Assembly: GCF_007671725.1 (NCBI RefSeq) | Contig: NZ_VCNM01000001.1 | Coordinates: forward strand, 868,001-932,000 | Source: Halorubrum depositum | Lineage (GTDB): Archaea > Halobacteriota > Halobacteria > Halobacteriales > Haloferacaceae | DNA: 64,000 nucleotides | Reading direction: 5' to 3' | In this document: positions 35,891-39,726 of the stretch, in pieces | Numbering within the stretch: the first letter of the stretch is position 1 | How the letters are laid out: each line of letters begins with the position of its first letter | Program-made: the position numbers and the translations under genes | The notes under the pieces: model-generated | What the model was told of the DNA's origin: nothing | Databases searched by the model: none | Seen by the model: only the letters and a program-made list of their open reading frames with translations

Positions 35891-38341
35891 TCAGCCGTCG
35901 GCGTCGATGTCGCCGAGCACGCCTCCGAGGAGCTTCCGCTCGGCCGTCCGGAGGTGCCGATTGAACGTCGGTTGGGTGATGTCCATCGCCGTCGCGATCT
36001 CCTCGCCGGTGCTCGCTCGCGGCCACTCGAAGTAGCCGCCGAGATACGCCGTCTCGACCGCTTCCCGCTGTCTGTCGGTGAGTTCGTCCGAGAAGCCGGG
36101 GCGAGTACCGGAACCGCCGCCTCCCGATCGGTCCCGACGAGAGCGGAGGTCGACGCGGTCGTACCGCTCCTCGAGGTGTTCGACGATCCGCCGCACGTCC
36201 ACGGGTCGCGGGAAGGTGATCGTCAGGTCCGCGCCGTCGGCGTCGGCGACCATCCGCTCGATGCTTCCCCCGTGTGCGCTCACCCTGTCGGCCACGGTCT
36301 CGTCGGTCACCGACGCCTCGAATCGCCCGGTCCGTCCGCCGCCCGTCTCGCGGAGCGACTCCAGGGCGGCCACCGACTCCGTCAAGCCGGACCCGTCCCC
36401 GTCGGTGGTGAAGTACACCAGCGACCGACCGGCTCCCTGCGGGACGGTCCCCTCGACGTGGAGCGGGGCCCCGAAGGCGGACGCGGTCCGCGACAGGAGC
36501 GCGTCGGGGTCGTCGAGACGCAGCTCCAGCTCCACGAGGGAGCCGGTCCGGAGCGACCGCCTGGTTTCCAGGTTGCTGATCGCGTTCGCGACGTTGTCCC
36601 CGAGCTCGACGAGCAGGTCGCCGAACTCGCCGTCGAACACCGACCGCTGGTCGGCGTACACCGACAGGACGCCGTAACACAGGTCGCCGTACGAGAGCGG
36701 GACGCTGACGACCGATCGGTACCCGCGCGCGAGGGCGCGCTCCCGCCACCGCTCCTCCCGCAGCCCGTCCGACACGTCGGAAACGCGGACGGGATCGCGC
36801 GCCTCGACGGCGCGGACGCCGGGGAGTCGGGCGGTATCGGCCGTGCTGGCGGCCCCCTCGCCCGCCGGAGACGGGGCGCCCTCCCGCCGAAGGGAGTCGA
36901 GGAACCCGTCCGACTCCCCCGCCTGCGCGATCGGGGTCGGATCGCCGCCGGTTCGGTACGTCTCCCCGACCCAGACGAACTCGACGGAGTCGGCCTCGAC
37001 GAGCGTATCGCAGACGGCCGCCGCGATCTCGTCGAGCGTGTCCGCGTCGACGAGCTCGCCGTTGATCCGTCTGAGGAGGTCGTTGAGCCCGTGGAGGCGC
37101 TCCAGTCGCTCTCGATTCCGGGAGAGTTCGGTCTCGCGTTCGACGCTGTCGAGAGCCGCGACGGCGTTCGCGGCCAGCAGCCCGACCGGCTCCTCGAGGT
37201 TCCCCGCCGGCTCCGCCGAGTCGAACTCGACGCGGAACAGACCGTGGCCGTCGAGCGTCGCGTACAGAGTGCGACCGGACGAGTCGTCCGGATCGTCCGA
37301 GTCGTCCGAGTCGCCCGACCGCTCGACCACGCGCCCAGTCGGCGGGACCGCGTCCGCGTCGTCCGGCGGCTCCGTCCCCGCGGAACCGGGGACTCGCCGG
37401 AGCGGCGGGGAACCGTCTCCGTCCGTTTCGATCGAGCGCGCCGGGTCGACCGTCGTCTCGGCGGCGTCGGAGCCGGCGGTGAACACCTCCCAGAGCAGGC
37501 TTCCCGGTCCGCGTTCGTCGTGGTCGCCGTCGGACGCGGCCGCCGGAACCAGCCTCGCTTCGGTCCGGTCGAACGAGTACGCCACGACGGTGGCCTCGGG
37601 CCAGACCGAGGCGGTCACGTCGACGACGGTTTCGAAGACCGACGCCGCGTCGTCGGCGCGGAGGAGCCGCCGAGCGGAGCGGCTCAGCTCGCGGAGGGCG
37701 CTCTCGTTGCGGCGTCTGTCGGTCACGTCCCTGACGACGCCGACGCGCCCGTGACGGCCGTCGTCGAACTCGACCGAGGAGAACTGCGTCTCGATCGGCA
37801 GCGACTCCCCGGACGCCGTCCTGATCGACGACTCGATCATGCCGATGTCGGAGCCGTCGCCGCGGAGCATGGCGAGGATCTCCTCGGCTTTCTCGAGCGT
37901 CTCGCTCCCCGCGAGCATCGACGCGTGCGACCCGACGAGCTCCGCGCGGTCGTAGCCGGTCATCTCCGTGACCGCCTCGTTGACCGACGTGATGACGAAC
38001 GCCTCGTTCAGCGTGTACACGCCGTCCTCCAGCGTCTCGAGGACGCGGTTCGACCGGCGGAGGTCGCGTCGCATCTCGGAGTTCCGGGTGACGTCGCGGA
38101 CGAGCACGCCGACGCCGCCGCGGCTCGGGACCGCTCGGAAGCGGAGCGTCGTCCCGTCGTCGAGCGCGACCTCCGCCTCGGCGGTCCGGCCGCTCCGGTC
38201 GGCCGACTCGACGGCGTCCCGCAGCTCCGGACCGAAGCTCGGGTCCGCCTCACGCAGGTCGATACCGACCGGCGAACCGTCGACGCCGAGCAGGTCGTCG
38301 ACCGTCGCGTTCGTGTCGGCAACCGCGTGGGAACCGTTCAC
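35891..38341 (-). CDS. PAS/GAF sensor with bacterio-opsin-activator HTH (Bat-like)
   Basis: An 816-residue regulator from the first acceptable in-frame start, a GTG at 38339-38341. Two PAS domains (second around LETLEDGVYTLNEAFVITSV), two GAF domains, a bacterioopsin activator GAF/HTH-associated domain and a C-terminal HTH_10 (LTDRQREAVETAYLGGYFEWPR, ITQPTFNRHLRTAERKLL) are visible. In haloarchaea such proteins sense light, redox or small molecules and regulate transcription. The reading frame stays open upstream to about 38450 and encodes PAS-like sequence (VGQFLASAGVGFLYV), so the true N-terminus is probably at 38444 with a one-base frameshift near 38429 (see findings). Confidence 0.85.
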   Translation of the reverse strand: MNGSHAVADTNATVDDLLGVDGSPVGIDLREADPSFGPELRDAVESADRSGRTAEAEVALDDGTTLRFRAVPSRGGVGVLVRDVTRNSEMRRDLRRSNRVLETLEDGVYTLNEAFVITSVNEAVTEMTGYDRAELVGSHASMLAGSETLEKAEEILAMLRGDGSDIGMIESSIRTASGESLPIETQFSSVEFDDGRHGRVGVVRDVTDRRRNESALRELSRSARRLLRADDAASVFETVVDVTASVWPEATVVAYSFDRTEARLVPAAASDGDHDERGPGSLLWEVFTAGSDAAETTVDPARSIETDGDGSPPLRRVPGSAGTEPPDDADAVPPTGRVVERSGDSDDSDDPDDSSGRTLYATLDGHGLFRVEFDSAEPAGNLEEPVGLLAANAVAALDSVERETELSRNRERLERLHGLNDLLRRINGELVDADTLDEIAAAVCDTLVEADSVEFVWVGETYRTGGDPTPIAQAGESDGFLDSLRREGAPSPAGEGAASTADTARLPGVRAVEARDPVRVSDVSDGLREERWRERALARGYRSVVSVPLSYGDLCYGVLSVYADQRSVFDGEFGDLLVELGDNVANAISNLETRRSLRTGSLVELELRLDDPDALLSRTASAFGAPLHVEGTVPQGAGRSLVYFTTDGDGSGLTESVAALESLRETGGGRTGRFEASVTDETVADRVSAHGGSIERMVADADGADLTITFPRPVDVRRIVEHLEERYDRVDLRSRRDRSGGGGSGTRPGFSDELTDRQREAVETAYLGGYFEWPRASTGEEIATAMDITQPTFNRHLRTAERKLLGGVLGDIDADG

Positions 38342-38484
38342 GTACAGAAAGCCGACCCCCGCCGAGGCGAGGAACTGCCCGACTGCCGCCCGGTGGTCGG
38401 CGTCCGTCAGATCCGTCGTCTCGCTGTTACGAATCGGTCTTCACCTCGGCGCGGTCTGAACACAGCGACACGAGCCTCCAGACA

Positions 38485-38493
38485 CATATAAAT
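38485..38493 (-). promoter_or_regulatory. TATA box upstream of the Bat-like gene
   Basis: TTTATATG on the minus strand, inside an AT-rich intergenic stretch (38445-38715) that separates two divergent genes. It predicts a transcript start near 38460, upstream of the presumed GTG at 38444, which supports an N-terminus beyond the annotated start. Confidence 0.5.
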
Positions 38494-38715
38494 CTCCCGT
38501 CACTTTCACGGAACACTATATTTCCCAGTGACACAAGTTCGAGATACATCCTGAGACAAAAAATGAAGTAAAATAGGTGTGAATAAAGAGTCCGAGTCGT
38601 GAGTATGTTCTCAGATATTCATACAAAATATTGTGATTTTCACGAGTACACGGTTATTATCATGATATAGAAAAGGAACAAAAGCCTTAACTTGGTTATG
38701 ATAATGTTTACGTGT

Positions 38716-39726
38716 ATGGCAAATAAGGCTCGCAGCACGATGGCGAACGACGGATGGGGGAGACAGGAACCGGGAGAGTACACGCGACGTGTAAACGAGG
38801 TTACGCTACCCCCAACGGCACGGGAATTCGCGGATCGCTACGCTCGCGTCGTCGGAGACCGGGATCGGTTCCTCTGGAAATGGATACACAACCTCTTTGA
38901 TAAGTTTACCTTAACGTCGGTCCCGAGCCGGGAACGCTCCGCCGTCTACGAACACAAGACGCTGTTGACGATGTTCGTGACGGTGCTCGACGACTTGGCG
39001 GAAAGCGAGGGCGATCAGGGGACGTTCACCGCCGGCCGCCGCGTCCCGTTCGGCGCCGACGCGACCAGGAACGTGGACGCGACGGCCGACGGGATCGACT
39101 ACGACGTCCTCGAATACCTCGCGGATCTGTGGAACGAGATCGACGCGGCGGTCAGGGACGCGCCGCGACACGGGGAGTTCGTCGACGTCTTCGAGTACGA
39201 CCTCCGACAGACGTTCAACGCGATGGAGTACTCCGGGCTCGTGAACGACAACCCGACGATGGCGAACCGCGCCGAGACCGAGCGCCACGACGCGTACAAC
39301 ATGACGATGTTCCCGTACGCCTGCATCGATCTCATGCACTCGCCCTCGTTCGACCGGGCCGAACTCGGAGCGCTTCGAAGCATCCTCTGTGACCTCCAAC
39401 AGATGGCGCGGATCGGGAACTGGGTCACCACCTGGGAGCGCGAGCTCGGCGAGGGGGACATCAGCTCCGGCGTCGTCGTCTGCGCGCTCCGGCGCGGCGT
39501 GGTCGACTACGAGGAGATCGTCGAGGCCGACGAGTGCGACGTCGAACGACTGGTCGACCGGATTCGGTCTAACGGTATCGAATCGGAGTTCACCCGCGAG
39601 TGGGACCTCCGCGACCGGACGGTCCGCAAGCGGACCGCCGAGGTGGAGAGCGTCGACGCGGAGAAGATCGTCGACGGCATCGAGGCGGTGATGAACCATC
39701 ACCTCGCCAGCGAGGGGTACAAGTAA
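38716..39726 (+). CDS. Class I terpene synthase-like protein
   Basis: A 336-residue soluble all-alpha protein. LDDLAE (Asp92, Asp93, Glu96) matches the DDxx(D/E) metal motif and NWVTTWERE (Asn235, Thr239, Glu243) the NSE/DTE motif (N,D)xxx(S,T)xxxE. The 142-residue gap between them, and Arg190 about 45 residues before Asn235 at the place of the pyrophosphate-sensing Arg, match bacterial sesquiterpene synthases. Such enzymes cyclise prenyl diphosphates using three Mg ions. The ATG at 38716 was chosen because a TATA-like CTTAACTT is centred 27 bp upstream; the first ATG at 38692 is alternative. No prenyl-transferase neighbour is seen. No biosynthetic function is proven. Confidence 0.65.
   Translation: MANKARSTMANDGWGRQEPGEYTRRVNEVTLPPTAREFADRYARVVGDRDRFLWKWIHNLFDKFTLTSVPSRERSAVYEHKTLLTMFVTVLDDLAESEGDQGTFTAGRRVPFGADATRNVDATADGIDYDVLEYLADLWNEIDAAVRDAPRHGEFVDVFEYDLRQTFNAMEYSGLVNDNPTMANRAETERHDAYNMTMFPYACIDLMHSPSFDRAELGALRSILCDLQQMARIGNWVTTWERELGEGDISSGVVVCALRRGVVDYEEIVEADECDVERLVDRIRSNGIESEFTREWDLRDRTVRKRTAEVESVDAEKIVDGIEAVMNHHLASEGYK

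Follow-up and report, generated by a model that had tools for sequence, protein, structure and literature searches.

Light and low oxygen are the conditions under which the regulator Bat activates the bop gene of Halobacterium (PMC3184054). Apart from lipids and carotenoids, terpenes have seldom been reported from archaea (PMC8600319). A preprint by Samusevich et al. (bioRxiv 10.1101/2024.01.29.577750, cited in PMC12797696) claims terpenoid biosynthesis in archaea in its title, and archaeal terpene synthases from that work are mentioned in PMC13235557. Going by this title, the preprint is prior art for archaeal terpenoid biosynthesis, and its enzymes may or may not belong to the present family.

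We analysed a gene in a 64,000-nucleotide stretch of Halorubrum depositum DNA (the window) that lies next to a Bat-like regulator and encodes a protein, P0001, resembling the class I terpene synthases of bacteria. Sequence comparison and a predicted structure indicate that P0001 is a member of the class I terpene-synthase superfamily and represents a separate, divergent family outside the canonical PF19086 type. The protein is likely a Mg2+-dependent class I terpene synthase; its divergent family is widespread in haloarchaea.

Motifs, conservation and predicted fold of P0001

The gene and its motifs are placed as follows.

38716..39726, + strand: coding sequence of P0001, terpene synthase-like, 336 amino acids plus stop; an open frame, with homologues aligning from the same start region
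38989..39003, + strand: motif 1, DDLAE (residues 92-96), predicted Mg ligands, at the C-terminal end of long helix 71-96
39283..39285, + strand: Arg190, earlier proposed as pyrophosphate sensor, not conserved
39418..39444, + strand: motif 2, NSE-type NWVTTWERE (residues 235-243), with predicted Mg ligands N235, T239 and E243

The reading frame is real, open and 336 amino acids long, and both motifs lie where the initial annotation had placed them. That annotation had also pointed to Arg190, which indeed precedes N235 by 45 residues; canonical bacterial enzymes have their sensor Arg at such a distance (45-46 residues). Its argument that three such matches by themselves make chance unlikely did not hold. 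In a sample of about 4,280 non-family ORFs of at least 150 amino acids, taken from the homologue loci and searched with relaxed spacing, six unrelated ORFs carry DDxx[DE] followed at 125-165 residues by Nxxx[ST]xxxE. Several matches per genome are thus expected by chance, and we do not accept the motif pair as proof on its own. Rather, the two metal motifs are taken as real because they are almost perfectly conserved over 88 sequences and because of the fold.

In the alignment of 88 homologues of P0001, residues R49, D93, N235, E243 and D248 occur in every sequence, as does Glu or Asp at position 96. D92 is present in 84, and position 239 is Thr in 87 and Ser in one. R242 and W236 are each found in 86 of the 88, and W240 in 87. 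The predicted ligands of the Mg-diphosphate complex are among the most constant residues of the family. Both the Asp-rich motif (DDxxD/E) and the NSE motif (N-x3-S/T-x3-E) expected of class I enzymes are present; the latter has the signature RIGNWxTTWERE, in which the Asp that usually follows the Asn is replaced by Trp (86/88). Four related homologues have an unusual NDxxD variant, with Asn for the first Asp of the metal motif (L119:7434-8411, L123:7801-8766, L124:7488-8459 and L125:7630-8634).

We rejected the pyrophosphate-sensor role proposed for Arg190 on grounds of conservation, as only 28 of the 88 homologues have Arg at this position and one that is 68% identical to P0001 has Gln. Nor did we find an Arg majority at any position from 178 to 206 in the 88 sequences. 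The family therefore has no conserved counterpart of the canonical sensor Arg, which stands about 46 residues ahead of the NSE Asn. It also lacks a general C-terminal Arg-Tyr pair: P0001 has N327-H328, and 28 of 88 homologues have RY among their last 40 residues, whereas RY or RF occurs in 15 of 16 enzymes of the canonical set. Four PF19086-positive bacterial enzymes of the canonical set also have no Arg 45-46 residues before the NSE motif, so absence of the sensor Arg does not exclude membership in the terpene synthase class.

The AlphaFold2 model of P0001, built on the 88-homologue alignment, is all helical (pLDDT 92.1, pTM 0.91). The DDxxE motif is at the end of helix 71-96 and the NSE motif within helix 214-245, with a break in the helical structure at 197. 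The ten best Foldseek matches to the model are terpene synthases. When PDB entries were re-aligned with VIA-align, every one of the top 50 was a terpene synthase, with Z from 20.7 to 22.5 and 261-293 residues aligned, the best being taxadiene synthase (Z 22.5, 263 residues, 2.9 A). A different predicted fold, which the initial annotation had named as a refutation, did not result: the model is a class I terpenoid-synthase alpha bundle.

Profile comparisons also connect the family to known enzymes. Aligned by hhalign to 16 canonical bacterial enzymes, the P0001 family gives a probability of 96.5% (E 9e-10). The PF19086 profile, suggested earlier as a check, gave a divided answer: P0001 itself scores 18.3 bits, below the curated cut-off of 23.7, but relatives exceed the cut-off, and the 33.7 bits of relative L061 are the best single check. 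At E up to 0.01, PF19086 matches 20 of 32 family members. Among 391 Halobacteria genomes, 50 have matches above the cut-off, and these matches fall mostly on loci of this family. Searches with P0001 of NCBIfam, and of the PDB by sequence and by profile, gave no match. Taken together, the fold, the motif conservation, the hhalign result and the PF19086 matches of relatives back the class I terpene synthase-like identity first suggested for this protein.

Divergent regulator and gene neighbourhoods

We identified a regulator gene and promoter elements upstream of the P0001 gene.

35891..38341, - strand: divergent Bat-like regulator (PAS, GAF, BAT and HTH_10 domains by Pfam), with the same arrangement in sister loci
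38632..38645, + strand: candidate operator TGTGATTTTCACGA, core TGA-N3-TCAC, in the shared promoter region; putative function
38654..38690, + strand: TATA-like AT-rich element (TTATTAT) and conserved GAACAAAAG..TTAA block, just 5' of the coding sequence; putative promoter

The gene of the Bat-like regulator is among 21 HTH_10 loci of the genome and shares a divergent promoter region, 38342-38715, with the P0001 gene. The TGA-N3-TCAC core is invariant in nine of nine aligned promoters of the window's clade, where mean column identity overall is 40%, and the exact 14-base form of the operator occurs twice in the whole 3.18 Mb genome. The Bat-like protein may bind this candidate site. Matches in the window to a bop-type activator sequence were no more frequent than chance and were set aside.

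We surveyed the immediate neighbours of 78 homologues (156 genes) against 76 control genes at least 3 kb away. PAS domains were found in 12 upstream and five downstream neighbours, compared with at most one of the 76 controls (Fisher's exact p 0.001-0.008, to be read as a guide rather than a test because the loci are related by descent). BAT/HTH_10 proteins are encoded by eight upstream neighbours and FilR1-type regulators by seven downstream neighbours; among the controls, the PAS, BAT/HTH_10 and FilR1-type families never reached two members. The position and strand of the regulator vary between clades, with several different gene orders, which argues for a link between regulator and synthase that has been kept. 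Several loci have a small gene with a HalOD1 domain directly upstream of the synthase gene (e.g., L055:6887-7180). A metallo-beta-lactamase gene adjoins the homologue at 16 loci, which we do not read as a functional link, as it looks like the shared chromosomal synteny of one family. No tailoring gene adjoins the P0001 gene in the window. In haloarchaea, a P450 gene lies within about 2-4 kb at four of 78 loci, and we set this linkage aside as weak.

The bacterial relatives have different partners. The Chloroflexaceae homologue is followed directly, on the same strand, by a P450 gene (PF00067, 312 bits). One bacterial protein (L135:1081-2976, G749) carries a methyltransferase fused to its terpene-synthase-like domain, while a paralogue of this protein (L165:8999-10813) has a related methyltransferase as a separate adjoining gene. 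We considered whether the fused methyltransferase is a prenyl-diphosphate C-methyltransferase and found no support for this, as the PDB entries that it matches best are methyltransferases of other kinds (MitM, 84 bits; geranyl diphosphate 2-C-methyltransferase, 37). Large proteins with GAF and histidine-kinase domains are encoded downstream of three bacterial homologues on the same strand (L166:11116-16506, L167:10197-15275 and L168:11342-16003), and two of the three also have protein-kinase and AAA domains.

The neighbourhoods raise the question of a signalling role, which is an alternative to the proposed role rather than to the chemistry. P0001 would make, or merely sense, a terpenoid or prenyl diphosphate, and the linked sensor or regulator would read the level of this compound. 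The readers would be of the Bat type in haloarchaea and large kinase-ATPase-GAF-histidine kinases in bacteria. This is consistent with sensor and regulator genes adjoining homologues more often than genes at least 3 kb away, with the recurrence of the linkage in several different gene orders, and with the large sensor-kinase proteins beside the three bacterial homologues. Common descent of the loci means that the counts overstate independence, however, many loci have no sensor or regulator neighbour, and an ordinary regulated biosynthetic gene would also have an adjoining regulator. We consider a signalling role rather unlikely.

With regard to the chemistry, a protein of terpene-synthase fold could act as a prenyltransferase, passing the cation to an acceptor (an amine, lipid headgroup or nucleoside) instead of cyclising it, as does the N-prenyltransferase DabA. 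DabA (6vkz) appears at rank 42 among the Foldseek matches, the NSE motif of the family is unlike that of canonical cyclases, and prenyl chains in archaea are generally known to go mainly into lipids. Such an activity nevertheless seems improbable, given that the best 50 VIA-align entries are all terpene synthases and that the bacterial P450 and methyltransferase partners fit the tailoring of a terpene scaffold. A relative of isoprenyl diphosphate or squalene/phytoene synthases is highly improbable: the class I fold is held in common and isoprenyl diphosphate synthases occur among the Foldseek matches, but all 88 sequences have Nxxx[T/S]xxxE as their second motif rather than DDxxD or DxxxD (trans-isoprenyl diphosphate synthases, PF00348, have two DDxxD motifs), PF00348 does not match P0001 even at E up to 10, and none of the 50 best VIA-align entries is other than a terpene synthase.

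Distribution and annotation of the family

Members of the P0001 family were identified in 120 of 391 sampled Halobacteria genomes (about a third) and in 39 of 86 genera, at odds with the view in the initial annotation that class I cyclases are rare in archaea. Within Halorubrum, the genus of the window, the distribution is patchy, with the family in nine genomes and missing from at least twenty. The clade of P0001 mixes genera and families, and P0001 is 71% identical to a copy on a Halobellus limi plasmid. Both observations fit transfer between haloarchaea, with paralogy as another possibility. All six plasmid-borne copies checked are annotated as 'hypothetical protein', and one match also overlaps a helix-turn-helix gene. 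The family is largely missed by profile-based annotation, and terpenoid chemistry in archaea may far exceed what annotation suggests.

Remote bacterial homologues come from Candidatus Anammoxibacter, a Chloroflexaceae bacterium and two more genomes of the Anammoxibacter phylum. We rejected a wide presence in the two phyla concerned, as homologues were limited to 1 of 251 sampled genomes in one phylum and 3 of 199 in the other. The viral contigs searched contain no relative of P0001. Tandem pairs of homologues were observed in a haloarchaeon (L109:6826-9208, G263) and in a bacterium (L164:9347-11456, G749). At another locus (L131:397-2439, G706), the homologue forms the C-terminal part of a 681-amino-acid frame whose N-terminal part matches the C-terminal domain of transketolase; this is either a true fusion or an assembly error.

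Proposed function and comparison with known systems

The P0001 family is probably enzymatically active. A shared fold alone does not show cyclisation, and both ionisation and cyclisation of a prenyl diphosphate are predicted steps. Six motif residues would hold the Mg2+ ions that bind the substrate diphosphate. The substrate would be a C15 or C20 (possibly C25) prenyl diphosphate, supplied by one of the two polyprenyl synthases encoded in the genome. On ionisation, this substrate would yield an allylic cation, which would then be cyclised or quenched in the pocket. Because there is no conserved sensor Arg or RY pair, the diphosphate is probably gripped by basic residues specific to the family, for which R49, R232 and R242 are candidates.

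The family is also probably under environmental control. In the P0001 clade, the neighbouring Bat-like regulator probably switches expression on or off, perhaps via TGA-N3-TCAC, and the product is thus likely made under a particular condition of light, oxygen or stress. More tentatively, haloarchaea may possess a common, unannotated terpenoid system in which a dedicated synthase clade is wired to Bat-type and other sensor regulators (its bacterial counterparts to large sensor-kinase proteins) and produces signalling or protective terpenoids in response to an environmental cue; we regard this wider proposal as possible but doubtful. Because of the Bat-type link, what triggers terpenoid synthesis in archaea can be tested directly in haloarchaea grown in the laboratory. 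If the enzymes are active, haloarchaea would become a new and broad terpenoid source, and the family would offer a test of how a class I cyclase functions when the usual sensor Arg and RY pair are missing.

As in the Bat/bop system of Halobacterium salinarum (PMC3184054), a Bat-type regulator with PAS, GAF and HTH domains adjoins a gene whose function involves isoprenoids, there through the synthesis of retinal; unlike in that system, the neighbour here is a terpene synthase-like gene. P0001 resembles the bacterial class I synthases of PF19086 (Terpene_syn_C_2; e.g., pentalenene, selinadiene and T-muurolol synthases) in its predicted alpha-bundle fold, in having DDxxD/E near the end of one helix and N-x3-S/T-x3-E on another, in the K/R before the last Glu, and in similar spacing. 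It differs from them in the Trp that stands for Asp after the NSE Asn, in the lack of a conserved sensor Arg and in an RY pair confined to some members, and its identity to PDB entries is about 10-16%. Canonical terpene synthases were also identified in two haloarchaeal genomes (L127:7503-11048, G183, and L128:1959-3389, G231; PF19086 136-170 bits). The two synthases at the first of these loci are divergently placed and have an SRPBCC-like N-terminal domain (PF10604). These enzymes are of the same fold superfamily as P0001 and come from the same class of organism, but they occur in 2 of 391 genomes, compared with 120 of 391 for the P0001 family.
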